DNA of 64,000 bases, from positions 1,364,001-1,428,000 of the forward strand of contig NC_092578.1 of assembly GCF_037975245.1 (NCBI RefSeq). The letters run 5' to 3'. The notes under the pieces were generated by a model. That model saw nothing but the letters and a program-made list of their open reading frames with translations. It was not told the origin of the DNA and did no database searches. Positions 28,101-57,625 of this stretch are shown piece by piece (positions within the stretch are counted from its first letter, which is position 1; every line of letters starts with the position of its first letter). The translations under genes and the position numbers were made by a program. The stretch comes from Apostichopus japonicus (Eukaryota > Echinodermata > Holothuroidea > Aspidochirotida > Stichopodidae).

Positions 28101-30327
28101 CGGAACATAGAGACGTCGGAACATAGAGACGTCGGAACATAGGGATGTCACCCCTTTGCTCAATTATTATATCGCGCTCTCTGACACAACTCCTGTTTTA
28201 GTCTGTATACACGCTGTTTGTGAAACGCACACGACATTGCCGTATGAGAACACCTGTCGGTGAATTGTTTTTATCAGTCACCAAAACAAGGCTTCCTGCA
28301 CCACAACTGAGTCAGTGACTATTATCATGTGAAAAATTCATCAAAATTTCCATTGACCATTGTAGCACTGCGTTATGGCTGACAAAATTTGGGTAGGCTA
28401 TATCGTTTCAATGAGGTTTTTTGGGGGGGCCTATTTCAGTTGGGGGGCTAATGGGGGGCAGACTACTTCAGTGGGGGGGGGGGCTAAAGCCCCCCAAGTC
28501 CCCCCTTGGCGCCGCCACTGATACTCATGCAGCTAGTCCATGTATACAACGTTGTTATAACAATGCTTGTGAAAAGGAAATTATATTTTCATCCGATGAC
28601 CTTATTCGTGACCTTTGACATGAACTTATATATCATTAACTCACTATAGAGAAGGATCAAGTCAGCGTGTCGCCTATCACGTCTCTGACCTTTACCATTC
28701 TTGATGATGTTAGACTGCAAAGTATAACAGCAGACGTCGCGCTTGTGTACAAAAACACACATACCGACATGTCTGCTCGATCAGCTGTTCATCTGCCTCA
28801 AGATGAATCAAAGTAACTATTCCCTTGGCAAATTTTCACTGCTCGTGAAAATGTACCGTCGGCATTTGTCAAGCTTTTAGCCTTTATTACCCCGTGTGGT
28901 AGACATAACTCAGCTTGTCTGTACCAATCACGCTACCGGGGGACTTCCCATAGGGTTGCAGCCGCAAACCGGCGCACGCAACTATATATAATACAAGTTA
29001 CCTCGCAAGTCTCCATTCATACACCTGGGTGAAGTGATGCAATGGAGATAAAGTGCCTTGCCCAAGGTCACAACGCAATGATCTGGCCCGGGACTCGAAC
29101 CTGTAATCCTTAGATCAGAGTCCACTGCCTTAACTACTTGACCACATTGCAACGCCTTCTCACTTTCAGACAATAATTAATTGATCATCATATAACTAAT
29201 TGAATCTTCATGAAGTGTGGTCTTTGTTATTTTTTAAGGCTTTCTACATCACCATTGTCTTACCGTAATTCCCCCTTTTATTTTATCTTTTCTTTTTTAA
29301 AGTCATTAGTGAATATTCTCTTTCGGATAATCTTGGGTTATCTGCAATTCAAGAAAACCTTCAAAACCCGAACTTCACTGATATCGGAGAAAGTTTTCAG
29401 TCAGATAGAGAGAACAGCATTAAAACGGCAAGATTATGAAATAATATTTGAAATTAATGAAAGGATGACTTTATAGGCCGAAATTTAGTCTTGATATACC
29501 ATGTTCGAGAAAACAAAAACGAAGAAATGCTTCTACAAGTATTCCGGTTTCCAAGATATTAAAGATAATAATATCTATGGAATGATTACGTCAACTCCTC
29601 TGTATAGGCGTTAATGTTTATGCTAATAATCCTTTGTTTTGACAAATTCTAACGAACTCAACCAAGACATGTTCTTTTAATTTCACATACACAACAGAGC
29701 ATGCATTCAATGATGATATTCAACACTGTTTGTCTTTGAAATTTGTTACATATTGTAAACATGTCAATTTTTATATCTTCCCAATGAATTTTGTATTGCA
29801 TCTGATGAATTAATAATGGTCGGTGTATAGTCCGGTCACTAATTACTGTTTAAAGGTTAATTTCTTAAATATTCAAAAAAAGCTATATAGAGATAAAACC
29901 TAGACTGATAACAGCGGTTCCCAATGGTCTGTTTCAATATCAACATTAATGTTTGTGTCTGCAGTCATTCTTTTAAATTAAGAAACCATGACTTTGTAAA
30001 TTTGAGAGTTATGCATTGAACACCTTTAGACTAAAATTTGCGAAATTCAAATTTAGTCCGTATATAGCAACACATTTTTAGACATAGAGTATTGTTAGGC
30101 TACATAATAACTTTTGGAATAAATTCATTATCATACGGTAAACGCTTGAACTACGTCACTTCCGGCCCGGACAAATTCCTCATGAAGTTGTCTGACCAAA
30201 TCGGGTCGGTCTAAGACCACCGTGGGTATGAAAGGTCCAGCCTGGATGTAGCATCTCCTCTCAAAGTTGAATATGTACCCCTCGGCTACCACTACCTTCT
30301 CCCCACAATGAAGCCTCTCCATTAACC
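22111..30327 (-). CDS. BHMT-like homocysteine S-methyltransferase, first exon not found
   Basis: Exons in transcription order 30327-30137, 25239-25045, 24258-24147, 23604-23408, 23128-23047 and 22388-22111 join in phase to about 351 residues. The fold is the zinc-dependent homocysteine methyltransferase TIM barrel (BHMT family), which transfers a methyl group, from betaine in BHMT itself, to homocysteine to make methionine. Zinc ligands are visible: Cys in VVGLNCSRG and the Cys pair in [10 protein letters not shown]. Other landmarks are GAGSDVV-like [18 protein letters not shown] and [10 protein letters not shown]. It is clearly divergent from vertebrate BHMT and stops about 40 residues after the Cys pair, so the C-terminal dimerisation arm is absent. 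The most 5' exon opens after a splice acceptor with two bases of a split codon, so an initiator exon must lie upstream (right); I could not identify it. The substrate is inferred from the family. Confidence 0.85.
25407..27079. mobile_element. hAT-like element with 8-bp TSD, carrying a nested insertion
   Basis: The ends are CAGTGGCTTCGCCA at the left and GACGCCACTG at the right. The flanking 8 bp are identical: GTTTTAAC at 25399-25406 and 27080-27087. CAGTG termini with an 8-bp duplication identify hAT. The interior holds a second element at 26,292 and about 0.7 kb of unrecognised sequence with no convincing transposase. It lies in the intron upstream of the second traced BHMT-like exon. Confidence 0.85.
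26292..26955. mobile_element. Nested hAT-like MITE inside the 25,407 element
   Basis: The ends CAGTGGCGGCGGAAC and GTTCCGCCGCGCCT are inverted repeats. GGAGGGGG occurs at 26284-26291 and again at 26955-26962; removing the insert and one copy restores the GGAGGGGGTACCCCC context seen in related elements. The last base is ambiguous between element and duplication. Confidence 0.7.
27150..28520. mobile_element. hAT-like element, 1.37 kb, with minisatellite interior
   Basis: Perfect termini CAGTGGCGGCGCC and GGCGCCGCCACTG are flanked by identical 8-bp duplications ATACTCAT (27142-27149 and 28521-28528), fitting the hAT nTnnnnAn pattern. The interior consists of a 16-bp tandem repeat and a long self-complementary low-complexity block. 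The reading frames of up to 184 codons across it are composition artefacts. It lies in a BHMT-like gene intron. Confidence 0.88.
27488..27630 (+). repeat. 16-bp tandem repeat (9 copies) with inverted copies at 28,098-28,150
   Basis: The unit GTTCCGACGTCTCTAT repeats nine times without visible change. Three copies in inverse orientation (GTCGGAACATAGAGAC) sit at about 28098-28145. The 470 bp between the arms is made of short GACCAA-T-run and A-run-GGTC units that pair with each other. Confidence 0.9.
28985..29158 (-). repeat. tRNA-derived SINE
   Basis: On the minus strand GGTCAAGTAGTTAAGGC (A box) and GGTTCGAGTCC (B box) are followed by a body containing GTGACCTTGGGCAAGGCAC, typical of tRNA-derived SINEs. 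BHMT-like intron. Confidence 0.65.
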
Positions 30328-31475: not shown

Positions 31476-31603
31476 CTGTTCAAATTTACGGCAACATAAC
31501 TTCCTGCTACAGAAATCGAACCGAATCCCGAACTTGTTCGCAGCAATATTGAAAGATGAGGTCTTTTGATGAATAAACTGACTTCATGTACAAAAGACAT
31601 TAA
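31476..31603. repeat. Left part of target-site tandem duplication, unit A
   Basis: This 128-bp segment matches 44742-44869 in the same orientation, differing at a few positions. Together with 44625-44741 it forms a 245-bp unit interrupted by the large element. The last six bases (31598-31603, CATTAA) are the left target-site duplication. Confidence 0.9.
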
Positions 31604-31737
31604 TACGATGGCCCATTAGGGCCATAGTGAAAAAAAAAATTGTCAAGTAAAAAAAAAAAAAAAATCAAGTGAAAAATTGATAAGTGAAAAAAAAAAATTG
31701 ACAAGTGAAAGAAAAAAACAATTCCAACCAAAGAATT
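31604..31737. repeat. Left terminal inverted repeat of the 13-kb element
   Basis: Pairs with 44492-44618. The first 26 bases are identical to the reverse complement of the right end; beyond that come A-runs separated by TCAAGTGA-like spacers and CCAACCAAAGAATTAATCTG. The outermost bases themselves form a small hairpin (ATGGCCC, ATTA, GGGCCAT). Confidence 0.9.
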
Positions 31738-31738
31738 A

Positions 31739-32200
31739 ATCTGTCATGACAGATTATTTAATCTGTCGTAACAGATTATTTAATCTGTCGTAACAGATTA
31801 TTTAATCTGTCGTAACAGATTATATAATCTGTCGTAACAGACTATTTAATCTGTCGTAACAGACTATTTAATCTGTCGTAACAGATTATTTAATCTGTCG
31901 TAACAGATTATTTAATCTGTCGTAACAGATTATTTAATCTGTCGTAACAGATTATTTAATCTGTCGTAACAGATTATATAATCTGTCGTAACAGATTATA
32001 TAATCTGTCGTAACAGATTATATAATCTGTCGTAACAGATTATATAATCTGTCGTAACAGATTATATAATCTGTCGTAACAGATTATTTAATCTGTCGTA
32101 ACAGATTATTTAATATGTCGTAACAGATTATTTAATCTGTCGTAACAGATTATTTAATCTGTCGTAACAGATTATTTAATCTGTCGTAACAGATTATTTA
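31739..32200. repeat. Left subterminal array: 21 copies of a 22-bp hairpin unit
   Basis: Core ATCTGTCGTAACAGAT (6-bp arms around CGTA) repeats every 22 bp, 21 times. The first copy has CATG at the centre. The 6-bp spacer alternates between TATTTA and TATATA, and one copy has a single change (ATATGTCG). Confidence 0.95.
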
Positions 32201-35135
32201 ATTACACATAGATGCCTGCTCTTGTACGGAGACTTCGACGTGCCATATTACTTCTTCTATGAGCGAAATGTCAGTTAGTTCAGATTGAAAAAAGATTGAA
32301 AATGAAGCAAATTAATTTTTGGGTCGATTTATCCTGTATTCCTGTAACTATGAGGAAACGACTATGGTAGTGTGTTTATGTTGGCTACACACATCAAGCA
32401 AAGAGTGTGGAACGCCAAAACCGACCAAAATGCAGTACAAAATTATGTGAACCTTATATGTGAATAAAAAGTTCCCGCTTCATAATGACGTGGAACTGTA
32501 TAAATCCATTTGTGGCACTATTGGCACCGCCAAATTTTAAGAACGCATTTTGGGGGTAAATTTTGGTGGAAAACAAAATTTATTACGGCGATGTGCATTT
32601 ATGGAATAATGCCCGTTTGCTCCTAGTTCACTTTTGGTGCTACATGTTCAAACTTCAGCTGCGTGCTAATGTATCGAAAGCTAGGACAGGACATTAAGAG
32701 TTTATCAGAATGGTAACAATGTATGCCACTATGATATTATAACACATTGTCACAATTCCTGATTCTCAAAGCAACAATTATTTGCCAAATTTTCTTTTAT
32801 TACGTCAAAAGAAATATTTACCATCTTTAAATTCTAAACTAATAAACGATGTGTTTTCCTATTTTCGAGGGTATGAAAGCATAATAATTAAAAATATAGG
32901 GAGGGTTCTCTATATAGGGAACTTTGGATGATAAGTTACAGATCTATTGGTTAGGTAAACGTAGCAGCCGGGGGGGGGGGGGATATCCGTGGGAGGCAAA
33001 TCCCTATATCCAATTTGAACTTGAATTATCCCACTGTTAGAACGCTTAGTAACCGTTTTTTTAGTTCGGAACTTTGATGTTTGGGACTTCTGTATGGCAT
33101 GACGCGAGCTAAAAGGTGGATTTTCAAGCGACAGGGTGGGAATTTTGTCTCTTTCAGGTTTTCCGTCCCACCTAACCTATTTAATGTTTATTAACGAAAG
33201 TTTGCATGACCTGAGTTGGTCCAAACTAGCAGTGGAATCTGCAATGCTTGGCTCTTGATCCCTGACTTGCCGAACCTATATGGTGAAATCATGAATATCT
33301 CTGAAATAAAGTTATTTTTAGGCTAGTTTGATCAGAACAATTATCCTGCATGTCCTCTTTACATCTACTTTCAGTGGCGTAGGAAGGTACTTTTGAGTGG
33401 GGGGGGGCTGAAGACTGATGGCCGGCCTGGGGGAGGGGTCTAAGGGGAGGGGGTGTCCCCCTCCCCTTTGGAATTTTTTGCATTTCCAGGTAGCCTCAGA
33501 TGCAATTTGGTGCAATATAGCACACTTCAACACCCAATCCATTTTGTAAACTTAATTTTGTATTTTCACCAGGCCTTAGATGCAATTTGGTGCTCCAAAT
33601 GAGATTTTTTCTCATTTGGAAATGAAAAAGGGGTTTTCTGACTTGCGAAGCGGGGGGGGGGGGGGGGGCGGAATGATACTTCCGCCCCTCCACATTTTTC
33701 ACTGGGGGGCTGGCGCCCCCCAGCCCCCCCGGTTCCTACGCCCTTGTCTACTTTACATTACAAGTTTGTGTAACTGTGCACGATCACATGATAGCTTAGT
33801 CATTGAAAACATGCTTGATAACAGAGGCGCTCGCAGAAATATAGCCAGGTCCGAAAAAAGGTGGGGGGGGGGGGATCCTGTAGCGTGGACAGCGCCACCA
33901 TTGATTCACAAACATGTCCTTAGATTTTCAAAGTCCAGAAAATTTGGAAAAAAGCAAAACTGACGGAAGGAAAATGATTACTAGAATGAACTTCTGAATT
34001 TTGATACCCCGTATAAACTCATCTATATCCCCTTCATCGTACACAAACGGATGACCTCATGGGCATTAATTTTATTTAAAGCAGCTTTAACATGGCACAT
34101 CAAAGTCCCCGTACAATGTCCATCTCTGTTAGGACAGATGAAATAGTCTCTCATGACAGGTTATTATCTATGCGGTCGTCATTGTAACGAATCATTTACC
34201 AGTAGGAAGGAAATTTCGGACTTCAAGGAAACTTGAAGGAAATTTCGGAGGAGTTCTACATAATAAGAACATTGCATGTAAGCACATTTCATTTGTAGCC
34301 AGTGTTTTTTAATTACACATTTTGCTATACCGTACTGCAGTTGTAGATACATATTACCGTAGGTAAGCCCAACCATACTAACAATTAACAGAGATATCGA
34401 GAAGAGGTGAGGGTTTTCACGTTCCTTTCCCCAGTTTCCTACCTAAAAAGTTGTTCGTATCATTTACTATCAGAGAGGGCGAATCAACTGTCATTTGGCA
34501 AAGAACCATTACATTGGCTCCTATTAATTGTCAATATTCCATTCACCAAATCACAAGGTAAATTCTTGGTAGGTTGTGCATGCTTGATATAGGTTTCTAG
34601 TAACATACAATTGTCGTTCAATTTTAGAAGTATGAAACTAAATTAACATTTTTGGTTTACAGTGTTCAATAGTGATGATGGTGGTTGGGCCTGGGGAGGT
34701 GACAGGAGATAAAGCATGGAATATGAACTGTGAACTTATACGGTACTGAAAAATGTGTAACAATGGGGCGTAGTTGTTGCCATGGCTTCCCTGTTCGGGT
34801 ATTAGTGGCACATATCACAAATTTCTTAAAATATTTGTGGGGAGAACATGTTATACGAATGCGTTCTAGGAGAATCTGCTCAACTCCGTATAGTACAGGG
34901 AACTAAATTTAGTACGTGACTTATTAATTGGGAGATGTAAAGGTGAGAAATGCAACCCCGTACCCGCGGGTACAGGATTACATGCTCTCCTCTGTGGTCC
35001 ACATACCACACCATCGAATCCACTGTACTGCTGGGGTATAACTAAGTCGTGTACACAGAAGAGTAGGCAAGTTTACATAGCAATAATTGTCTTAGATGGA
35101 TTTCATTTGTTTACAGATATTTTGTTCAAGGCGTA
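32201..35135. other. Left internal non-coding region of the element
   Basis: No ORF of note. It contains the MITE at 33,372-33,746 and presumably the promoter and 5' UTR of the integrase gene; a TTTACAG acceptor-like site ends at 35,116, 19 bp before the ATG, suggesting a spliced 5' UTR. Confidence 0.5.
33372..33746 (+). mobile_element. hAT-like MITE nested in the 13-kb element
   Basis: 375 bp with ends CAGTGGCGTAGGAAGG and GGTTCCTACGCCCTTG, flanked by identical TCTACTTT at 33364-33371 and 33747-33754. The same family occurs inverted at 46,098. Its presence inside shows that it inserted after the large element formed. Confidence 0.9.
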
Positions 35136-36966
35136 ATGGAAGATCGAGAGGAAATTATCCGTCACTATTTTCGCCTTGGATACAGTTATGATGACATTTG
35201 TATTTCCCTTGCATCGCGTCATAACATATTGATTAGCAAGCGGCATCTGAAGAGACTTATTAACTTTCATATGGGTTTGTTTAGACGGAAGCATTATTCT
35301 GATATTAATGATGTTATAGACTTCATTGAGATATTGTTAACGACATCAGGACAGTTACACGGTTATAGGTGGATTCATCTTAAATGTATCTTGCATGGAC
35401 TGACTGTAAGCAGAGAAACTGTTCGCTTGATTCTTGGATTTCTAGATCCAGAGGGCGTTCAAGTTCGGCGGAGAAGAAGACTGAGACGACGCCAATACCG
35501 CGTTGCCGGGCCTAATTTCCTTTGGCACATTGACTCGTATGATAAACTGAAGCCATACGGCATATGCATAAATGGATGCATTGATGGATTCTCTAGGCAG
35601 ATGATATGGTTAAAGGCATACCACAATAACAGCGACCCACGGCTAATTGCCGGCTATTACATGGAATCGATTCGTGAGACCGAGGGATGTCCAGCCGTAC
35701 TCCGCACTGACTTTGGCACCGAAAATAGCATAATCAAACGTATACAGCAGTTTCTAAGGAGAAATGGTAATGATGCCCTAGCTGGCCCTAGTAGCTTTAT
35801 GCAGGGCACAAGCCATCACAATCAAAGAATCGAATGTTGGTGGAGTTTTCTTCGCAAACATTGCACTCAGTTCTGGATGAATGCTTTTAGTTACCTCAGA
35901 GAGGAGGGCATGTTCACTGGAACATACCTGGACAAAGCGTTGATTCAGTTTTGCTTTCTAAATCTTATCCAGGTAATGTATTTTGTATGTAGTCAAATAA
36001 ATCCATGCCATGTATTAGTAACAAATTGCTTGTTTTATGATATGTTTGCAAAATGATAAACCAGAATGCAGAAATGGATTAAGATGGGACAAATTTTGTA
36101 CTTCTGATTATGATGACCAAATGATAGACTTGTGCTTGAACCAATGTGATTCCTCAGCATACAATATGCTATTATAACCATGAGATCTCTCCAAGCTTCC
36201 TCATCTTGAGATATTGTGTCCACATTGTTTTCACAAATTGATGCCTGTTAAACGAAAATAACCTTTGACCTCCATCAAAACAATAAGCTTCTTGTACTCA
36301 ATGCAGTACAACTATATACAACATATCAGACCTTTCCAAGCTTCCAGCCTTGAAATATGGTGTTTACTAGCTGGGCGTCACCAACACACACATACACACA
36401 CCAAAAATGTTACGATTATCATCTAAAAAAAAAAGGAGAGGGGGGAGGGGGGGTCATAGCAGATAGAACAAGAGCATGAAAAGAAATACTTCAAAATTTT
36501 GTGCAGCATATGATTTCTAGGTGCAGAAGGGTGGATGTGCGAATTCAATAAGCATTTTTCACCATGGAGGTTACATATACTATGACATGATTAACTTTTA
36601 ACCAAAATTCGGAAAATTCCAACTAATATTTTTTTACAGACAGAATTACATGATCTGCAGCTTGAATGGAACAACCATCGCATATCACCATCCAGAAACA
36701 GAATTGGTCCTTTCGGTCGACCAGAAATTATGTACACTGCACCGGAACTATATCAAACTAGGAGTTACCTAATGGAAGTGCAACAGGACGAAATAGAAGT
36801 TTGTGAGGAAGAATGTGTCTTTAGGGATAACTTTCCATGCGACAGAGATGTATATGAACTATGTTGTATTCAAATGGTAGATAATAATATTAATGTTCCA
36901 GTTACAGCATTTGATGCCATGATGTTATATGAACGTCTTAGAAGATTGGTGCTGGCTGAACTGTAG
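35136..36966 (+). CDS. Transposon DDE integrase, 2 exons, 387 aa
   Basis: Exon 1 35136-35972 (donor CAG/GTAATG) and exon 2 36640-36966 join in phase 0. An N-terminal helix-turn-helix-like region (about residues 1-50: YFRLGYSYDDIC, SKRHLKRL) precedes a short arginine-rich stretch (111-119) and an rve-type integrase core. The putative DDE residues are Asp133 in WHIDSYDKLKP, Asp192 in RTDFGTEN and Glu233 in NQRIECWW. A C-terminal part with NNHRISPSRN, MYTAPELY and a Cys-containing tail matches the family of integrase-core proteins that occurs in many copies in fish, corals and other invertebrates. No stop or frameshift interrupts it, so it may be active. The second exon restores residues that single-ORF translation would lose to intron read-through. 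Confidence 0.88.
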
Positions 36967-39900
36967 GAGAAATCTGCCTCCCCCTGCACCTTTATGCATA
37001 TGGATATTGTATGCTTCCTGTGAGCCTATCTCACATGGCTCCTGATGGAACACATGGTTAAGAGAATTTTTTGGACGTATCAGCAGCCAATCTAATGCCA
37101 ATCGAAGCCTTCCTAAAAGGCATTAATAGATGAAGGCTGGGTGTCTTGGTGATTGGAAGAGCAAAACATAGGCTTAATTTGCTGACGGAGGCGTTGGCAC
37201 AGTGAAGTGCCCCCAATAAGATTTGTAAAATGGAGGAGTTTTATACTCTTTTATGTTCTGTTTGCTTTACTCTCACTGCAAAACTACCTGTTATTTACTG
37301 TTAATGTCACTTCTTTCCACCCACGTGCACCTGCCCCTTCTGTTTTCCCCTAGTTTTTCCCTTTCTTACCCATAAAGCGTGCATCCCAGGCCAAGCTCAC
37401 CCTGGATAAACGCCTGTTGTTAGTTAAGTTGGACTCAGACTAAGGATATACTTGTCTCAAACTGGGGGATCCCCTGATATTTACTTCAATTATCTGATAT
37501 TAACATGCATGTCTTCTTTAGCTAGTTTTCTCTATGCAGCAATTAGATTTATATTACATTAATCACTTGCCCTCTTTGCTCACCACCACTACACCGACCA
37601 AGTTCATATTAGCCCCCTTTTGCAATCCTTTTCCAAGGTTGTCATAAGCCTATGTTTAAGTGAAAATGATAATTATAGGGTACAATTTTTGTGTAGTTTC
37701 ATACATATGACATATCAAGTGGTGATATAGAGCACATAACCTGCAGACCTATTCGATCACAATAAATTTTTACAGCAAATACACATGATCAAACACAACA
37801 GTGGCTTAAAAAAAAAATAATAATTTGTGGTCAAATTTTAAAAGTAGAGTTAACACCCCTCTGAGAAAGAAGCAAGGCACACCTGAATGTTGTATGGAAA
37901 AAAATCAAGGACGTATTAGGAAGGACATGAGACAAGGTGAGTAATTAAAGGAATGGAATGCTAAGAGTGTGAATGGTTGTCAAATGTGTTGGCAATAGTA
38001 GTAAAATGGCATTAGCTGACAGTACTAACCGTACTTGTTCTGACGAAGTGATTTTTAAATACCAAGACAGAATAATGTAAAGAGGACACTATGACTGACA
38101 ACAGTGTCCTCCAACTACAGCAACAAATATTGATATGGACACAATATGTAAGGACACTATGACTGACAGTAGTGTCTCCATGTTCTGCAGAAGCAGGCTG
38201 CATCCAGTCTAAGCAAGTTCGACAACACGTTACAGTATAATTACAAAGATTTGAAGTATTATCAAATCTGCAGTGTAAAACTGATCATTTGACACAAGAA
38301 AATAGGATCAATAATTGAACTGATAGCCAGATATCTGAGTATCCATCTATATATTTTGATGCTCCTTCAATATACCATGATGTGATACCTTACAGGATGA
38401 ATCCATTACCAAGTCATTGTGTCCTTATAGATGCAATACATTAAGTAATTGAATGGCATGGGAAAGAGGAAAAGGGGGAGGGGGGGGGGGGTAGCCTTAA
38501 CCATACAGTCTAATACATATAAACATAATATCCAAAGACAAAGACCTTACATAAGATATGCATAATGTAGTCTGTGTTTGATAGAGTGCTCAATCTGCAT
38601 AACAAGCTACCTGTATGTCTGATTTATTCCCTTGGATGTTTAAGCATTAATGTACAGTAAGAACACATGACCACAACTATGCTAAAGCAAAGTCAAGACA
38701 TGGTCATCGATACTCAGTTTTGCTTTCTGAAACTTCAGTATGTATATACCTGACCACTTTGATGAATATAGCAAGGTCACTTTTGAAACTAATATACCTA
38801 ATGATATTTAGCTTAAGATATTAAGGGGACAACTATCATGATCAATCTGAGTCATGGGAAAATGGATACTTTCCATACTCATAATAGGTACAGTATATGG
38901 GGTAAACAGAATATTGCATATATGTGTTACAATGTATTGCCATGTACTATTAATATGTAGCTTGGACTTAGGCTCGGACCAGCTGGACTCGGATCTACTA
39001 ATCTCAACTACAGCACTGGACTGTCACTCTAAGTATTTAATGTATTTTTCTCTCTCTAAGTCATGAATTCTTATTAAGTACCCCACATCTAAGTAAATGA
39101 CCCAAGTCATATAGCAGCACTGTACTCTTTATGGTTACTCTGAATATTGGCAATAATGGCAATAACTAATTTTGTTTTGCCCTTTGCCTTAATTATTCCA
39201 TGAATCATTAATAAATTTCACTTTTTTTTGGCTCTCTTAAAGCAGCATTTTGCGTCCTTTTCTATTATTTTTCTCAACCTCACTGACTTGGGTTAATTAC
39301 TTGTATTGAATTTTCAATTCACTGCATAGGTTTTTCTGAAATTTTTCGTTTATCATAACAATCTTTACTGCAGGAATATGACAAAGTTTACAACAAAACT
39401 GTGGAATGACCAGCTCTCCTGCTCTGTTTATTCATGAACAATAATAACTCAAAATAAAAACCAAGAAATAAGTTTAAGATAAAACAATTAAAGTACTTTC
39501 CAAATTATTGAAAATGTTTATGATAAACAACTACACATCTTCAAAACGTGCCCAGAGTAATTACCTGAGGATGCACCAATGCAAGACTCTAATGAGCAGT
39601 GAGGTTGGAGTAGCTGTACATCACACCTCATAGTTCCTGCTCTATTCCGCATAGGACTCATTTTAACTACTGATCTCTCTTTATATTCACGCTGACACTG
39701 TCCTGTTTCTTTCTAAATGATTTATACCACTTTTTGCATTACATACAGGATCTCTGTTTTTGTTGAATATATGGATTAAATATTCTTCAAAATTAAAAAA
39801 CAAAGGCTGCATAAAACTTTACATATAACTCAAAAGTAATGTACAGTAAGCCAACAATTTACTATTTGTAGAAACCATGCCAGTTATGCAAAAAAGTATG

Positions 39901-40699
39901 ATAGAAATTTTGTACAAAATTCCTTAGACATACTGCACAAAAATGTATTTTTAATCCGACTTGCTTAATGTACTGACAGTTTCTAGGATCAAAAAGATGA
40001 CAAAAATTGATAAATCTATCCAATTGATGTATAACACTTCCTTGAATATGTTGTAATGGCTCTCTTTTATACTTTGCCAAATTGTCTAAAACTATGAACA
40101 TATGGAGTAACTACTTCTGCAACTTTAACAAAATGCACTTTTACTACAAAAAAAAACATTAAACTCTCATGCAATATTTAGCCAACACTTCAATCTAACT
40201 ACAGAAAATATTTGTAATGTCAAGTCCTATCTGTTTACTTGTTACTTCATTCACCACGAAGGCTAAATGATGTTGTATGATTTGTTAAATAAGAGACCAA
40301 AAGACAGAAACTTTCAAAGTTCCAGCCGACTTTGCCTAATCAATGTTATACAGGCTGATTGTAATGATTTAAATAAACTGACTCTAGTAGACTAAAACGT
40401 ACACATAACACATATCTACATTTGAAAACAGTTTTCCTGGTCCACAGAGCATTCTGAATGAATGAACAAAACCACTGTACATTTTATCCCTTATCTTAAG
40501 ATGATGGTGATGTAATAATTGGCTGAACAACACCAATTTCTCAGGTTACAGAAGAAAATATCCTTTACTTTAAAACACCACCATAAACAAGAAATATGGG
40601 TCTTTGCAGAAGAAAAATATGTAAAAGACAAGTTGAGGGTACCTCACAAACATAAACTTAAAGTAGTAGAACTTATTTTATTCACAAAGGCCAGCTATA
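36967..40699. other. Central non-coding region between the convergent transposon genes
   Basis: 3.7 kb with no ORF that resembles a protein. An AATAAA lies at 37761-37766 for the plus-strand gene, and TTTATT at 40677-40682 for the minus-strand gene. Poly-G runs occur near 36,440 and 38,480. Confidence 0.6.
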
Positions 40700-42463
40700 T
40701 TAAACTATGTCCATTACCCAGATACCTGAGTCAAGAACCTGGTTTAGTTCATTTTTCATATCAATGTAGCTTTCATAAGTTGTTGGAAGCTCCAAACACT
40801 GGCTGCAAGTGTGTGCGACTGGCCTGCGTGCAAAGCCATCCAAGAGATTGAATGAAACGTTTAACTGCGGGAATGACAAAACATCAGCCCCAGTCCAAAA
40901 GCGCAAAAACTTCTGAAGCTTGTCTTTCTCAAGGGATCGGATGTACTTCTTTAAGTAAGAAAATACCACATGTTGGCCTTCTGAAATATCTTGTGGGACT
41001 TTTATCCTGCTAATAACTTTCTGGGACGTTGGCATCATGTTTTTGTAGAGTTCACGCAGTTGTAATGGAGTTAGTTCTTCTCGCAAGGGCTCAAGAGTCT
41101 CTCGCATGCTGTCAGCTATGAACATTGGTTTCTGAATTATCTCTTTGTGCCCTATTTCATACAGGATTTGAGGCAAGTTGCGCTTCGTAACTAGAACTCG
41201 GCATCCGTAACCATCAAGAATATCAATCAGCTCATCATAACTAGCACCCTCTGGAAAGTGTGTAAGTGCTTCCACAATGACCATTTTCTCTGACACTGAT
41301 ATGTATTGCAAAAATGCATCCTTCATGTCCCCTTCACTCTTCCCAAATATGGCTTCTTCCATGAATGGGGGACTAAGAGACAATGGAAAGTACCTCATAT
41401 CTTTCCATCCTTTGGAAATTATGCGACCAACTGATTCCCAAGAATTTGCATCAAAGTCATGTCGTAATGAAGGAACTTTGAACTGGTCACCTGTTGAATA
41501 CTTTGCAAACTCCTCCCAAAAAGCTGTGAAGGCATCGGCATACACTCCGGACCCCTCTCCCAATTCAATTTCACCATTTGGCAGTACCATTCTTATCTCA
41601 ATTGCAGAATTTGGTACTTGTGGGTCTTTAAAGAACTCTATGAAGTCTTCAAAAACATGTGTTCTCCTGATTACAAATGTTTTTTTGGTGTGTTTATCAT
41701 CAATATGACTATCACTAGCAGCTAAAGCTGATGGTCGAAACACAATTGTGGGTGTTCCTGAAGGTAATTCATTGCTGGGATGGCCACTTAAATTAATTTC
41801 TGACTCTTCATAAGTCGTCAGATCACTTAGTTCAGTCATTACTTGTTGAGATGTACCAACCGTCACCTCACTGCCAACATCAGTCATCACATGAAGATCA
41901 ATGGCTGGAATTTCATCACCTGAATCATCGGACACATGGACAGTTTCATCTACATCTTGTACCTGGTCAGCTTCCTCAGAGGATGCTTCACCACTAGTTG
42001 ACTCGTCTCTTTCAATTTCTTTGGTAGATATGTACATTCTTAGGACACTCAATTTGGTGGTTTCGTACATCTCTTCAATTGTTGGATTGTTCACAAAGGG
42101 GAGCTTGCGAACATCCATCATCTCAAATTTAAAATCTGCTAGTGTTCCTTTAGGGGAAAGCCCGTCTGGGAAAAACAACTTCTTTGCCTCCTCTAACACA
42201 TGTGAAACATTCATGGCTTTTGGCATAATTAAACGTCGTATGCCACCACCGTTTTGTATACGTACTTGCTTGTATGTGTCCCCTTTGGACAAATGCAGCC
42301 ATCCAACATCAACCCTTCTTTCAGCTTTCGCAGCATTTTTGTTTCCTTGCATTCTGCTGGAACGGTGTGTAGAACCTTCAGTTGTTCTGTTTTCCCTTTG
42401 TCTTAGCCTCAACTTTTCTCGCAGCCTCTCCATTATTTTGTCCTTTCTGGTTGACATTTTCAT
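40700..42463 (-). CDS. HECT-domain E3 ubiquitin ligase-like protein, 587 aa
   Basis: A single coding exon. A basic N-terminus (residues 1-50) leads to a conserved module (KQVRIQNGGGIRRL, KKLFFPDGLSPKG, MYISTKE), an acidic Ser/Thr-rich linker (about 150-255) and a HECT domain from about residue 265 (GEGSGVYADAFTAFWEEF in the N-lobe). The C-lobe contains LQKFLRFWTG and HTCSQCLELPTTYESY, placing the thioester Cys at about residue 553. This arrangement matches the multi-copy G2E3-like proteins of fish and invertebrates. The start is the first ATG after a splice acceptor at 42,473; joining to a candidate 5' exon gives an in-frame stop upstream and no earlier ATG. The catalytic Cys and closing sequence are intact. 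Substrate and role in transposition are unknown. Confidence 0.87.
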   Translation of the reverse strand: MKMSTRKDKIMERLREKLRLRQRENRTTEGSTHRSSRMQGNKNAAKAERRVDVGWLHLSKGDTYKQVRIQNGGGIRRLIMPKAMNVSHVLEEAKKLFFPDGLSPKGTLADFKFEMMDVRKLPFVNNPTIEEMYETTKLSVLRMYISTKEIERDESTSGEASSEEADQVQDVDETVHVSDDSGDEIPAIDLHVMTDVGSEVTVGTSQQVMTELSDLTTYEESEINLSGHPSNELPSGTPTIVFRPSALAASDSHIDDKHTKKTFVIRRTHVFEDFIEFFKDPQVPNSAIEIRMVLPNGEIELGEGSGVYADAFTAFWEEFAKYSTGDQFKVPSLRHDFDANSWESVGRIISKGWKDMRYFPLSLSPPFMEEAIFGKSEGDMKDAFLQYISVSEKMVIVEALTHFPEGASYDELIDILDGYGCRVLVTKRNLPQILYEIGHKEIIQKPMFIADSMRETLEPLREELTPLQLRELYKNMMPTSQKVISRIKVPQDISEGQHVVFSYLKKYIRSLEKDKLQKFLRFWTGADVLSFPQLNVSFNLLDGFARRPVAHTCSQCLELPTTYESYIDMKNELNQVLDSGIWVMDIV

Positions 42464-42855
42464 CAGCAAACCCTTTAAAGAAATAATGCAACAAAAATAT
42501 AAACATCACTATCAAAATGTATTCATATTAAATGAATGCTTACTAAAACACACTCGTACATGTTGACTAATCAGTTTTTCATAATTGCAAAGCTATTACC
42601 AATAATGCCGGGTCAAACAATAATTCTGCCATGCACCTCCATTAATCAAATGTCTTTCATATAACACAATTTACATGAATACTTTGTAATTATCATGCTT
42701 TATGTACAGGACATCTGCACATGCCTATCTATATCACTGTTGGCAGATTGGTTGGGGGGGGGGGATCTTCCCTCGTGCAGGCCAGTCCACTATTAATGGC
42801 TTTTGAACTGTTTATTTCAGTAGGCTATTTTCTGAAAAAGTAGTAGTATATTAAA

Positions 42856-43430
42856 GGCTTCGTAATTGACGCACCCCCGTAATTGACGCACCTTCAATTA
42901 TTACTAGCAACGATACAGAAGGCCACCTAAACTTTTTGCAGTCAAGCAGAATTACATATTTCATGAGTTTGAATCCATTTCAGCTATTTGCTGACCAACT
43001 TGTGGTATTTTTTAAGCTTTAAACACCCTCCCCCCCAGTTTTACACATTTTTGGGACATTTGGAAATCTTACTCCCTAAAAATAACCAAAACTACTTCAA
43101 AATGATACCACTACTCTCTGGGACCTGACCTGTCTAAGCTTAGAGGTTCAGAGCATAGCAAACGGCATGCAAAGTCAATGGATGTATACTTAGGCGTACA
43201 ATACAGTTACGACGCATGTGTCAATTTAGGGGTATGAAAGAACTTGACACAGCAGACATTTTGTGGTCAAATTCTTCTCAATTGTACGTTGTGTAAGCAC
43301 AAAACAATAAATATTTTGAGATCATTACATTTCTAAGGAACTACACATATGAAAAGTGCATGCAGTTGAGTGATTTTGATGTTGACCGACATCGTCAATC
43401 CAATCCTTAAGTGCGTCAATTATGAGCCCA
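42856..43430. mobile_element. Possible small TIR element
   Basis: GGCTTCGTAATTGACGCAC at the left pairs imperfectly with GTGCGTCAATTATGAGCC at the right, about 570 bp apart. No target duplication was found. Confidence 0.35.
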
Positions 43431-43818
43431 CCATGCTACTACTAGTACTAGGCTAGGCCTAGCAATTGTTTAATAATGTGTTAAACTCGATCAGTCAAAT
43501 GCTAGGCCACGAAGCAGTGGTATGAATTCCCTCCCAATCTTGCTTCAACTTAGTAATGTATAGTGAAGTGTAGGCCATGGGTTTACTTTATTTCAACTAA
43601 ATCTAACTTTTGCTTTTATCATTCATGGTTAGGGCAGGCCCGGTAACAGCTGTTTGTAACGTTAGGCAACTTAGAGTTGTTCGTAGACCTATGACTAACT
43701 CTGAACATCCATGAAGCCGATGATCTAGGCTTAAAGTTAGTCTTTCTAACCAGAAAAGTAAAACTTTACATGTATAAATAACTTAACATGTTTCAAACGA
43801 ATACAACTTTAAACTTAC

Positions 43819-43960
43819 ATGGTAAAACTCACGCCGAAATACAAATGCATCACTGATGGCGTTCCTAATCCTACTGGCTATGCACACGTACGTACTTACT
43901 TCAATGACTGACTGTTCGGTAAGTGGAATATATCATGCGCTATGCGCTACTGTATATGTT
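43819..43960 (-). other. Candidate 5' UTR exon of the HECT gene
   Basis: A perfect donor (CAT/GTAAGT on minus) at 43813-43818 could splice to the acceptor at 42,473, just upstream of the HECT start. The joined frame has a stop and no ATG before 42,463. The right border is a guess. Confidence 0.35.
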
Positions 43961-44122
43961 GCACGTGCAGCGTGCACTGTGATGTGGTATTGTTCAGCGT
44001 TATTGTGTTGGAGTTCTCTCTTCATACCTTGCTCGTGCCCAGGCTTGGGTTTGGATAAATATATTCTTTACACTTCAATACTCGTGTGTGTTTTTTCGTC
44101 GTTCATCGCCTGGCGTAGACTA

Positions 44123-44490
44123 ATCTGTTACGACAGATTAAATAATCTGTTACGACAGATTAAATAATCTGTTACGACAGATTAAATAATCTGTTACGAC
44201 AGATTAAATAATCTGTTACGACAGATTATATAATCTGTTACGACAGATTAAATAATCTGTTACGACAGATTAAATAATCTGTTACGACAGATTAAATAAT
44301 CTGTTACGACAGATTATATAATCTGTTACGACAGATTAAATAATCTGTTACGACAGATTAAATAATCTGTTACGACAGATTAAATAATCTGTTACGACAG
44401 ATTAAATAATCTGTTACGACAGATTAAATAATCTGTTACGACAGATTAAATAATCTGTTACGACAGATTAAATAATCTGTCACGACAGAT
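44123..44490. repeat. Right subterminal array: 17 copies of the 22-bp hairpin unit
   Basis: Core ATCTGTTACGACAGAT, the reverse complement of the left-array core, repeats every 22 bp, 17 times. The outermost copy has CACG at the centre. Confidence 0.95.
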
Positions 44491-44491
44491 T

Positions 44492-44618
44492 AATTCTTTG
44501 GTTGGATTTTTTTTTCTTTCACTTGTCAATTTTTTTTTCACGTATCAATTTTTCACTTGAATTTTTTTTTTTTTTACTTCAACTTTTTTTTTCACTATGG
44601 CCCTAATGGGCCATCGTA
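44492..44618. repeat. Right terminal inverted repeat of the 13-kb element
   Basis: The reverse complement matches 31604-31737 apart from changes in the lengths of A-runs and a few substitutions. The last base of the element is 44618; CATTAA follows. Confidence 0.9.
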
Positions 44619-44624
44619 CATTAA

Positions 44625-44986
44625 CGTATCCTAAGTAAGATTTTTTAATACCCCTTGTGTTTACCAAAACAAAAAACGTTTTCTTCAATTTTCTCAGTTA
44701 CGTAAAACATCTATCCCTGGACCTCACCAGGGGCCCTAGGGCTGTTCAAAATTACGGCAACATAACTTCCTGCTACAGAAATCGAACCGAATCCCGAACT
44801 TGTTCGCATCAATATTGAAAGATGAGGTCTTGTGATGAATAAACTGACTTCATGTACAAAAGACATTAACGTATCCTAAGTAAGAATTTTTTAATACCCC
44901 TTGTGTTTACCAAAACAAAAACGTTTTCTTCAATTTTCTCAGTTACGTGTAACATCTATACCCTGGACCTCACCAGGGCCCTAGGG
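44625..44986. repeat. Right part of unit A plus intact unit B of the 245-bp tandem duplication
   Basis: 44625-44741 (117 bp) completes unit A (128 + 117 = 245 bp). Unit B is 44742-44986 (245 bp). CATTAA sits at offset 123-128 in both. Unit B carries the unoccupied site AGACATTAACGTATCC. Confidence 0.9.
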
Positions 44987-45599: not shown

Positions 45600-45945
45600 G
45601 AAGCGTAGAAGGGACATTGCATTGACGAGTGACCAACTTGACAATACGACAATTTTCTGCAAATTGACGAGTTGTCGAGACGGTAACGTGACAAAATTCA
45701 GAAAATTGACGTTTTGACGAGATCACGGATCTCGTCAATGCAGCAATTTTCTGCAAATTGACGAGTTGCACAGTTACTACCATCTCGACAAGATGACAAA
45801 ATTCAGAAAGTTGTCGTTTTGACGAGATATCGGATCTCGTCAATGCATCAATTTTCTGCAAATTGACGAGTTGCACACTTACTACGTATACCATCTCGAT
45901 AAGATGACAAAATTCAGAAAATTGATGCATTGACGAGATCCGGAA
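45600..45945. repeat. About 104-bp tandem repeat containing inverted motifs
   Basis: Roughly three units share AATTTTCTGCAAATTGACGA, ATGACAAAATTCAGAAA and GACGAGAT-n-GGATCTCGTC, the last being a hairpin. A reading frame of 154 codons on minus runs through it without resembling a protein. Confidence 0.75.
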
Positions 45946-46097: not shown

Positions 46098-46464
46098 CAA
46101 GGGCGTAGGAACCGGGGGCTGGGGGCGCCAGCCCCCCAGTGAAAAATATGGGGGGGGCGGAAGTATCATTCTGCCCCCCCCCCGCTCCGCAAGTCAGAAA
46201 ACCCCTTTTTCATTTCCAAATGAGAAAAAAATCTCACTTGGAGCACCAAATTACATTTAAGGTCAGGTGAAAATGAAAAATTCTTTACAAAATGGAGTGG
46301 GAGTTGAAGTGTGCTATATTGCACCAAATTGCATCTGAGGCCACCTGGGAATGCAAAAAAATTCCAAAGGGGAGGGGACACCCCCTCCCCTTAGACCCCT
46401 CCCCCAGGCCGGACATCAGTCTTCAGCCCCCCCCCCCACTCAAAAGTACCTTCCTACGCCACTG
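46098..46464 (-). mobile_element. hAT-like MITE, inverted relative of the 33,372 copy
   Basis: 367 bp from CAAGGGCGTAGGAACC to CCTTCCTACGCCACTG, flanked by identical TCGGCAAG at 46090-46097 and 46465-46472. Its reverse complement closely matches the copy at 33,372-33,746, including the internal GGGGTGTCCCC-type block. Confidence 0.9.
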
Positions 46465-53500: not shown

Positions 53501-56500
53501 TCAGGAGATATTTCTCCTGGCTTCATTTCTACTTGAACTTTACCATTTCTCTCCATCTCTCTTAACTCATCATCACATTTCACACTTGGCAGAACAAACA
53601 ACCCTTTATCCCTGGGTGACTGAACAGGACTTGAAGGATGTGTTACGTTTGAGGAGAGATACATATTGCTCAATCTACCTTCAGAAGAAGAGTTTGCAAC
53701 CATTGCTCTGGGAGGTAAAATGGAGGATGAAGTCATAGGTTCTCCGTGGTTACCATGGTAACTTCCTCTATCATTCTCAGTCATTCTGTCATCATCATCA
53801 AAGGTCAGTCTATCTTGTAAATTTTCTGACTTCCCATTTGCAGGTTTGTAACGAGCTTTGTTTCCATTAGTTTTTAAACAACTCCTGTTATCTTCATCGA
53901 AAATTCCACCAGAAGTTGTCCGAGTAGTTTGAAAGTGTCTGCTATTCCTGAGTATCATTTGTATGGATGGAGCTTTGGGTTTCATTGATTTCACATCAAC
54001 ATTCAAGCTGCTTAATCGTGTTTCCAAATTTTCATCATTATTTCCTAATTCTACAGGAAGTAGGTGCTTTGTCATATTTTGATTGTGCTCCAGTAATAAG
54101 TTTCGTGTGTGTCTAGTCCCTGATGTAAGATTAATTTTGGTCTGTTCTTCTGATGCAACCATCTGATCATAAGATTGGACGTCAGAGATGGAATATTTAT
54201 CATTTGACATTCCTTGCTCTGTTGTCAAATTATCATCTTCTGCAGAAAGGGCTAACTTTCTTCCTGTCAATGACATCCTTTCTCCTAAACCATTATCATC
54301 ATCTTCATAATATCTGCCATTGTCACTTCTGGTCTTTTTTGCATCCTCCATAATTCCACAAGTTCCTGAGACTTGGAGCAAGTCTAGAGAAGCTTTGTTG
54401 CTAGGAGATGCATCATCCACTCTTATGCCATTTGTTTCTTTCAGGCTTGAGATACCAGAGTCACCAATAGAATCCTCAAAATACCAACCAACCTCATCAT
54501 CGCTGTTCATTGCTACTGATTCATGGATGACTTCCGACAAGTTTACAGAATTCCCTTTGTCAATCCTGTTGCTTGCTATTGCATCATCTCTTTCAGTTTG
54601 CCTAACGGAATCACTCTCATCTCCATCCCTATCGAAAAACCAACTTAAATCATCCTCAGAATAATTCACATCGATTTTTGAATCCTCTGACGACTCCAAG
54701 TTTTTTGTGCTGAACTCCAAACTAAGGTCGACTGGGCCTACTTTGCAGTCATCTGCTCCAAGCAAAGATCTTTGTTCCACCTGATTTTGTTGGATCATTT
54801 CTTTGGTTTGAGAGCTTTCTGTTCCAAACAATTGTGGTCTTTTATTTGTTGTCTCTAAGGTTTCTATAATATCTGAACAATCGATGGCTTCTTCCTTACA
54901 GGCATCTACACACACATGCATGATGCTATCCCCCAGAGAATGAATGGTTTCTACTGATATTCCCTGTCAAGAGAAAATTAAAAACAGTAGTGTAGTAAAT
55001 TTGTGAACAAAGACATTTTTTAATATTATTAATTGTATCTGAGACATTAGTAATTGGTTAATTTCTCAAATCAACAGCCATAGGAAAAAAGAAAGATCAG
55101 AAGAAAGGTAACATTGCCCCAATGTACGCTAAAAGACTAGAAATTGTCGCCAATTACTACAATTAAATCACTGCTGTTAAATCCTCCTCCAGATTACCAA
55201 GTACTAACATTTGGAGCCAACTTAAATGATCTTTAAGTGACATCATTTAGAGATGGTTTGGTATTGCGTGTTAATTTAAAACAGATATGTAAAAACACTG
55301 GTACATAATTAGATTTGGCATTTCTCTAGCTAAATTAATTTGATGATTGCATGTAAGTAATTGTCCCCAAATAAATCATCCAACTTGCAGTAATTCATTA
55401 AACATCGGGAAAACGAATATTTGATTTAAACAATGAAAGGGTTTTATGACTTCTAACCTTCACCCAAAAAACACCCCAAAAAAAGCCATGATTTATCTTT
55501 CTTTAACTAATGCGGTACAGCCTCATATACCAGCTAAACACCTACTTCGTCCAGCAGTGACTGTATGGCGTTTGCCCAGGTGCCAGCCATGCAAACTAAT
55601 GTGGTGCAGCCAGAGCCTATTCGTTTGGAATGATTCAAGCAAGCATCCCTAAGAAGATGGCCAACTGGATGCTATAGAAAAGGAAAACCAAAAATAAGGA
55701 ATTTATGTTAAGCTGATTATTACTTAAGTCAAAACCTAGGTTTAAGAAATGAAAATATTTACTTCTAAACTAAAACAAACACAGATTGATTAAATAAACA
55801 CTTTTAATTAACAACTACTATTATCGGCATGCTTCTAAACTTTCAAGCAATGAACCCATCTTAAATAAATGCTACTTACTTCTATATCCAGCAACGATAA
55901 TAACTTTTGGGTAGAAAAGGCGGCCTCACAACCATCATCTTCTGTGATAAATTTAATACTAAGATGAGAAAACAGAGTCGTGTAAAGAAGTTAACATCAG
56001 TAATCTATTCTTTCTTGGTATACTTGTTGGTTTACTTTTGAAAACAATGTGTTATTAAATTCAGAAGAAAAGGTGCAAATATGAGAAAAATGTTGCAGAA
56101 ACAAGAAACTTTTTGGGGGACATAGCCCTATTAGTCTACCATAGTGTAACGATTGTATGTACTGTGAGACTGAAATATATGGAACGCGAAAAGGACCACA
56201 ACATATGATGATGTTAATGATGATCTAATTTTATACGATCATGTACTGTAAACTTACGATCATGTACTAGAAATACACCATCATGTATTAAAAATTTACG
56301 ATCATGTACCAAACATATACGATCATGTACTAAAAGTATACGATCATGTTCTAAACATATACGATCATGTACTACAAACGTACGATGTACATCAAAACAA
56401 ATACGATCATGTACTAATAATGTTATGTTCAAAAAAAGTGGCGTCTGCATACGCGTATGTATATTCATATGTGGTGTATGCATACGAGTATGGATATTCA

Positions 56501-57625
56501 GTTTAAACTCATTAAGAACCATTAGGGGCGGGGCTTCAGTATCAACTTTGATATTCCTAGGGACACTTATATATGGATATGCATACGCGTATTCAAACGA
56601 CAATAATGGATATTCATACGCCACTTTTTTTTAACTTTTTTTAAGTTTTCAGTACATGATCGTATATGTTTTGATGTACATCTTACGTTTTTAGTACATC
56701 ATCGCATGTTTTGATGTACATCTTAGTTTTTAGTACATCATCGTATATGTTTAGTACATCATCGTAAGTTTTTTAGTACATGAACGTATAAAATTAGATC
56801 ATCATTAACATCATCATATGTTGTGGTCCTTTTCGCGTTCCATAGAAATACATGTGTTGTAACCTAACAAATTAACTAATGAAATACATTAAAAATAGCA
56901 TATTGTTATTAGCAAATTTATAATTTCCAACAAATACAAAGACATTATCTATTAGGAATAAAAAATAAAAGAAATTGTATGACTAATTTGTAAAAAAATT
57001 GGCCTACCTTCTTTCTGGTCCCAGAAATCTTTTGCAAGCAACAGCTTAAGAAATTAAGAAAGAAAAGTTATAATTACTCTCAGTAACTCTTTACTTTATT
57101 ACGTTATGAAAGGAAAGGGTTATGTTTTGATAATTAGTAATTACTGTAGGTTATCCAGATATAATCATCAGATATTATTATTTCTATTACTTATTGTAAA
57201 ATGTTGTAAGTTTTGTATAATCATGTTTTTTATTCAAAAAAAAATAAAAAATGTATTTAATATTAATATTGTTAAAAAGTGATAACTATTTACTTAATCT
57301 CTGCTAACTTATCAGTTGATAACATAATTAGAGATGGCAAATCTAATAAGCACAAAAATTTAATCCTAAGCATTATATTTTAGAAAATATAAAGTAGTTA
57401 TGGTGAAAATTTTGGAAAAGTTCATCAAGAATTTATATTCAGACCATCTTGCAACCTGATATAATCGAAACGATTAGGTAGAATAATGCAATGTATACCT
57501 GTCTATGATACCTTACTGCAAGAATGGTTGAGAAGTGTTTTACCCTAAGTTACATTCTTACCGATGGAATGTACAGCTTGTAGCCCAGAACAGCATTTTG
57601 CGGTGGTGGGTTCCCAGTATGTCAT
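47564..57625 (-). CDS. BBS12: Bardet-Biedl syndrome 12 protein (BBS12), 12 exons, about 1,232 aa
   Basis: Group II chaperonin-like protein that, with MKKS and BBS10, helps the CCT complex assemble the BBSome at cilia. Exons in order: 57625-57562, 57044-57008, 55958-55880, 55671-55546, 54963-53348, 52970-52896, 52328-52184, 51733-51587, 51022-50855, 50279-50160, 49290-49128, 48522-47564; the total of 3,699 nt is in frame throughout. Landmarks shared with human BBS12: GLQAVHSIAVACKRFLGPER at the N-terminus, GSGCTTLVCMAGTWANAI, SLSHGAKSSMNLAK, LINGDLTPGFKHPGF, ILVKGHVDTQLCDYCL, YVCLGGAITE and, near the end, TSKTEAWENAWSLL. The start ATG has an in-frame TAG five codons upstream. Human BBS12 is 710 residues; the excess is mostly the 538-codon exon 5, rich in Asp, Ser and Asn, and an extended last exon. 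Two other exons are as small as 37 and 64 nt. Assignment is by motif order. Confidence 0.87.
48890..48990. repeat. AT-rich palindromic low-complexity tract
   Basis: Repeated ATAATTATAATTAAT-type motifs in both orientations, in a BBS12 intron. Confidence 0.7.
51130..51240 (+). repeat. Dispersed repeat family R1, copy 3
   Basis: GGTCCTAGCAGGATCTTGAT, then AGTAGATAAGCAGTTTGTTA further right, in the same order as the copy at 411-525. BBS12 intron. Confidence 0.4.
56178..56844. mobile_element. TIR element with internal 21-bp arrays
   Basis: The ends TATGGAACGCGAAAAGGACC and its reverse complement extend to about 60 bp of near-perfect inverted repeat. GAAATA flanks both sides (56172-56177, 56845-56850). 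If only the terminal TA is the duplication, a mariner-like origin is possible. Interior arrays of ACGATCATGTACTAAA-like units at about 21-bp spacing occur in opposite orientation in each half. A second inverted repeat of about 200 bp (GTGGCGT...ACGCCAC) occupies the centre. BBS12 intron. Confidence 0.8.

Follow-up and report, generated by a model that had tools for sequence, protein, structure and literature searches.

A complete 13-kb transposon of Apostichopus japonicus, probably of the IS3EU/GingerRoot kind, carries a HECT-domain gene beside its transposase gene

When a gene for an integrase-type transposase and a HECT-domain gene are enclosed by the same terminal repeats, do the two form one mobile unit, to which kind of transposon does that unit belong, and is the HECT gene an accessory of transposition or a passenger? 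These questions are raised by a 13-kb element of the holothurian Apostichopus japonicus, which lies within a stretch of 64,000 nucleotides (NCBI RefSeq assembly GCF_037975245.1, contig NC_092578.1, positions 1,364,001 to 1,428,000 of the forward strand), hereafter the window, in whose own numbering all positions are given. We consider it probable that this element is a cut-and-paste transposon of the IS3EU/GingerRoot kind in which the HECT gene is an accessory gene rather than random cargo.

The unity of the element can be read from its ends and from its target. The first 35 nt at the left end are, inverted, identical to the first 35 nt at the right end (tips TACGATGG..CCATCGTA), and the terminal inverted repeat (TIR) arms, each of about 500 bp, align at 96.0% identity over 505 columns. 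With up to three mismatches allowed, the window contains two matches to the 20-nt terminus, one at either end of the element, where a mean of 0.01 would be expected by chance. Inverted pairs of 20-mers more than 200 bases apart number 4,156 across the window, of which 372 remain once pairs with a left arm starting at 31731-32206 or a right arm at 44116-44501 are excluded. The element was inserted into one unit of a 245-bp tandem repeat (44619-44986 being a tandem duplication immediately right of the element), and the second copy of that unit provides a paralogous empty site: the first part of this copy differs from the left flank by 3 mismatches in 128 columns, and the remainder continues as right-flank sequence. 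Because the target site duplication (TSD) and the empty site coincide in this way, the interior of the element, later nested insertions excepted, integrated in a single event with a 6-bp duplication, transposase gene and HECT gene together. The initial annotation had proposed exact inverted termini of 20 bp, a 6-bp target duplication and a complete large DNA transposon holding both genes in one integrated unit; its coordinates prove exact, the identical termini are longer than it supposed, CATTAA stands on both sides of the element and once in the empty site, and the last claim is upheld by the duplication and the empty site combined.

The predicted transposase gene comprises two exons, whose boundaries follow from reading frame and splice consensus, separated by a predicted intron at 35973-36639 (CAG/GTAATG at the donor and TTTTTTTACAG/ACAG at the acceptor). 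Pfam rva_4 (‘Integrase core domain’) scored 96.1 bits on the unspliced open reading frame (ORF) of 306 residues; for the spliced protein of 387 residues the score rose to 115.2 bits (4.1e-33), which supports the predicted splice. Candidate catalytic residues, picked by eye, are D133, D192 and E233, separated by 58 and 40 residues; upstream of the core, in residues 1-132, no HHCC motif was seen by eye. The protein also has weak matches to phrog_157, a phage transposase family (5.4e-05), and to the NCBIfam models of IS3 (5.8e-04) and IS481 (0.0048) transposases, while a sequence search of the PDB returned no match at E up to 1.

The HECT gene lies on the opposite strand, and its frame runs for 601 stop-free codons, an extent with a chance of about 8e-19 from base composition alone. 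Pfam HECT matches residues 342-580 of the ORF at 37.0 bits (3.9e-09; cut-off 23.9). The HTC motif near the C-terminus places a cysteine at position 555 of the ORF, or 553 counted from the ATG, which we take to be the putative HECT active-site cysteine, and the region around it aligns weakly with the solved chains of AREL1 and UBE3C in the PDB (E 0.011 and 0.08); the whole protein found no PDB match at E up to 0.01. The HECT protein may be akin to the G2E3-like proteins that are present in many copies in fish and cnidarians. Both frames are open, in agreement with the two intact convergent genes of the initial annotation, and each gene starts nearer its own end of the element, with 3.7 kb between the two stops.

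A palindromic unit of 22 bp, TTAATCTGT-CGTA-ACAGATTAT, repeated in tandem, makes up most of each TIR arm, and the left and right arrays are mutually inverted. Folding of this unit gave a z score of -8.46, and none of 200 shuffles did as well. The outermost bases repeat the design, since the palindrome in each tip likewise sets two arms around a 4-nt centre; the 26-nt tip folds as DNA at -9 kcal/mol, again with none of 200 shuffles as good. A comparable placement of arrays within inverted ends was seen in a separate 673-bp element at 27480-28152, resembling a miniature inverted-repeat transposable element (MITE), which has another TSD length (8 bp, CCTTTGCT) and whose inverted arrays repeat a 16-bp unit, TCTCTATGTTCCGACG.

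Complete and structurally intact as it is, the element is possibly autonomous. Another MITE, which we take to be hAT-like, is nested within it as a later insertion; the element is thus not brand new, and both genes are open nonetheless. This MITE has a second copy at 46098-46464 in the window (tip CAGTGGCGTAGGAAG; 90.8% identity over 380 columns; the two copies mutually inverted), and a piece of it spanning 112 columns, 78.6% identical, lies at 27227-27337.

Table 1. Positions of the 13-kb element, its parts and related features in the window
Feature	Position	Strand	Details
Complete IS3EU-like DNA transposon	31604..44618	.	13,015 bp; identical inverted ends, CATTAA pair, paralogous empty site
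Left target site duplication	31598..31603	.	CATTAA
Right target site duplication	44619..44624	.	CATTAA
Left terminal inverted repeat arm	31604..32108	+	aligned to right arm
Right terminal inverted repeat arm	44121..44618	-	aligned to left arm
Tip palindrome	31608..31625	.	ATGGCCC-ATTA-GGGCCAT; left tip, mirrored in right tip
Left subterminal 22-bp array	31736..32202	+	21.2 copies; Tandem Repeats Finder, 97% matches
Right subterminal 22-bp array, inverted	44121..44493	-	17.0 copies; Tandem Repeats Finder, 98% matches
Transposase exon 1 (predicted)	35136..35972	+	279 codons; Pfam rva_4; carries D133, D192, E233
Transposase exon 2 to stop (predicted)	36640..36966	+	reading frame and splice consensus
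HECT-domain E3 ubiquitin ligase gene (putative role)	40700..42463	-	587 aa; one coding exon; HTC motif; Pfam HECT
hAT-like MITE nested in the element	33372..33746	.	8-bp TSD TCTACTTT; later insertion
Paralogous empty site (second tandem copy of 245-bp target unit)	44742..44986	.	one CATTAA, 44864-44869
Separate non-autonomous element	56178..56844	.	667 bp; tips TATGG..CCATA, perfect inverted repeats over 60 nt; 6-bp TSD GAAATA; ~21-bp unit in inverted arrays

To place the element among known transposons, its structure was set against each candidate group. Polinton/Maverick elements carry genes for DNA polymerase B and capsid proteins besides a 6-bp TSD; our element does not agree with this, its three ORFs of at least 150 residues being the transposase, the HECT protein and one antisense to HECT, though split genes in the remainder were not sought with profiles. 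Kolobok-like elements have a TTAA-type target, and CATTAA could be trimmed to suit one, but trimming makes the tips unequal, the transposase is of another family, and GAAATA, the duplication at the separate 667-bp element of this window, contains no TTAA. The comparison with Ginger, IS3EU and IS481-like transposases that the initial annotation had suggested was made by published description, as far as the available part of that source extends (PMC10045372). There, complete IS3EU families always have TA..TA termini and usually a 6-bp TSD, GingerRoot duplicates 6 bp and ends for the most part in TA..TA, and the HHCC motif is absent from both. Our element shares with them TA..TA termini, a 6-bp TSD, an integrase-type DDE transposase and the lack of an HHCC motif before the core, and departs from them, as described in the same partial text, by a HECT E3 ligase gene, by TIRs built of 22-bp arrays and by its size of 13 kb (PMC10045372). 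Ginger1 and Ginger2, with TSDs of 4 bp and 4-5 bp, are ruled out by the 6-bp duplication, and IS481EU, given there with TNT..AYA or TGT..ACA termini and TSDs of about 4, 15 or 25 bp, by the duplication together with the TA..TA termini (PMC10045372).

The 667-bp element bears on this placement from a second side. According to the sections available of one study, fungal TET+ IS3EU families of rusts end in TAYGG..CCRTA (PMC12730594), and the tips of the 667-bp element conform to that signature. Comparison by blastn in the two directions, with E limits of 1e-4 and 0.1, found no similarity between it and the 13-kb element. Because it combines a published IS3EU signature with the same body plan of inverted arrays, it is plausible that this genome has seen more than one transposition of the IS3EU type. 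Elsewhere in the window, an exon at 23210-23731 on the minus strand matches homocysteine S-methyltransferase (Pfam S-methyl_trans, 6.4e-05) and, like the predicted transposase intron, would suit an animal genome, and a tandem repeat with a period of about 105 (2.3 copies) occupies 45689-45939, just right of the 13-kb element.

Several observations weigh against an IS3EU/GingerRoot transposon with an accessory HECT gene. The DD35E spacing is usual for IS3-type integrases, and the second spacing in the candidate triad would be 40 instead of 35. The general Pfam profile rve reached 14.3 bits on the transposase, below its cut-off of 32.6, and the NCBIfam scores were far under theirs (19.2 of 160 bits for IS3; 16.5 of 224 for IS481). 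Placement within IS3EU/GingerRoot follows published descriptions and is putative, and the tip TACGA deviates at its fifth base from TAYGG, a signature that the available text states for fungal TET+ IS3EU only (PMC12730594). On the side of the gene pair, the HECT protein, whose ligase role is putative, had no match in NCBIfam or PHROGs and weak ones in the PDB; the two genes correlate only moderately in their codon usage (r 0.56, 57 codons); and their pairing is known from a single copy.

Against the window, tblastn with either protein found no further copy at E up to 1, and Rfam gave no match at gathering score. Translated pattern scans for relatives yielded 2 and 11 matches in viral contigs and 14 in prokaryote genomes, none of them confirmed; degenerate DNA motif scans yielded none in viral contigs and two in prokaryote genomes; both lie in frames that we take for ordinary bacterial genes, and in neither locus did tblastn match the transposase or the HECT protein at E up to 0.01. 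Single-sequence AlphaFold models of the two proteins reached a mean predicted local distance difference test score (pLDDT) of 36.6 and 36.3 and were unusable.

How far, then, do other accounts of the locus compete? The initial annotation had suggested a previously undescribed superfamily, and two of the features just listed would suit a lineage other than IS3EU, namely tips reading TACGA and NCBIfam IS3/IS481 scores under cut-off. That suggestion was not borne out, as the ends of the element, the length of its TSD and the integrase type of its transposase all agree with IS3EU/GingerRoot as far as that kind is described in the available text (PMC10045372), and the second element in the window, with TATGG..CCATA tips and a 6-bp TSD, follows the same inverted-array plan; we regard a new superfamily as quite improbable. 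The strongest competitor concerns the HECT gene alone: an IS3EU-like transposon may have picked up a HECT gene of its host accidentally and carried it since as a passenger with no role in transposition. The single copy suits such an accident, and DNA transposons do capture unrelated genes, as illustrated in the accessible text on TET/JBP dioxygenases moving between superfamilies (PMC12730594). A passenger, however, sits poorly with a HECT frame still open over 587 residues in an element old enough to hold a nested MITE, and with a convergent layout in which the genes point inward from opposite ends. G2E3 matches among unclassified repeats of Cottus, as reported in the available part of that study, further hint at a recurring link (PMC5638112). 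We therefore rate accidental capture as unlikely, though it is the main rival.

Two further accounts dispute the common history of the genes. The HECT gene could have arrived later, by nested insertion or retrocopying into an already integrated element, and its single coding exon and the existence of one nested insertion, the MITE, would be in keeping with that. Yet no hallmark of a retrocopy appeared in the stretches tested, with no A-run of at least 8 within 1.4 kb past the HECT stop, and with the HECT flanks (42481-43600 and 39201-40690) sharing no word of more than 10 nt; a retrocopy is unlikely, and later entry in general very improbable. For a chance placement of two unrelated terminal-repeat elements on either side of host genes, the whole never having transposed, nothing was found to speak beyond the large size of the unit; arms of 96% identity and one 6-bp duplication outside the outer ends speak against it, and the empty site, which with that duplication marks one integration, contradicts it, so that its probability is close to nil.

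An IS3EU/GingerRoot-like transposon with an accessory HECT gene thus remains the preferred account, and a mechanism may be sketched for it. The transposase would bind the TACG.. tips and also, probably in dimeric form, the palindromic arrays of 22-bp units; it would then cut at TA..TA, excise the element and insert it by cuts staggered by 6 bp. The HECT protein would act as a transposon-encoded accessory E3, most likely ubiquitinating a host factor that limits transposition, such as one of repair, chromatin or silencing; alternatively, its target may be the transposase itself, whose level it would set. As one copy of the element is the sole basis, we infer a conserved accessory role of HECT rather than observe it.

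The initial annotation had suggested that enclosure in a transposon may explain the multiplicity of HECT genes in animals, and that the HECT protein may be a transposition factor. G2E3-like HECT genes are multi-copy in the genomes of fish and marine invertebrates. A broader proposal is that, in an animal IS3EU lineage, a HECT E3 is the standard second gene, disarming or reprogramming a host factor, and that copies of such elements are the source of these multi-copy genes; we put it forward tentatively, with somewhat less than even confidence. Should further copies show the same pairing, it would mean that a whole E3 ligase has been appropriated by a DNA transposon, which would offer a direct handle on how transposons manipulate the turnover of host proteins; many ‘G2E3-like’ HECT genes reported in fish and invertebrates could then also be explained as transposon genes to be masked, not as expansions of host families. 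The 13-kb element looks intact enough for an activity test.

Among known systems, the element appears to be a transposon of a known superfamily, with the HECT cargo as its new and unusual part. Among the papers listed in searches of the open literature, judged by titles, abstract beginnings and term counts, no description of a HECT-bearing DNA transposon was found, though subscription journals or Repbase may contain one; the available parts of PMC4255032, PMC9243025 and PMC13228809 likewise yielded nothing on HECT transposons. In Cottus fish, unclassified repetitive elements have G2E3 as one of their protein matches, which would accord with HECT genes being mobile in fish; the available text gives no transposon structure for these repeats, and their kinship to the 13-kb element is putative (PMC5638112). 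Kolobok lineages, as outlined in the accessible portion of their description, associate a DDE transposon with distinct accessory proteins (nuclease, helicase or KolX) and resemble our element in having such an association, but their transposase is of another family and the accessory proteins named are not E3 ligases (PMC9587614). A parallel is offered by the TET+ IS3EU families of fungi, all of which, in the part of the study available, carry an alpha-kinase gene in the orientation opposite to the transposase, a precedent for further enzyme genes in such elements (PMC12730594). Like them, the 13-kb element has a 6-bp TSD and an enzyme gene beyond the transposase, there alpha-kinase and TET/JBP; unlike them, as far as they are described there, it ends in TACGA rather than TAYGG, and the extra gene that it carries is a HECT gene (PMC12730594).

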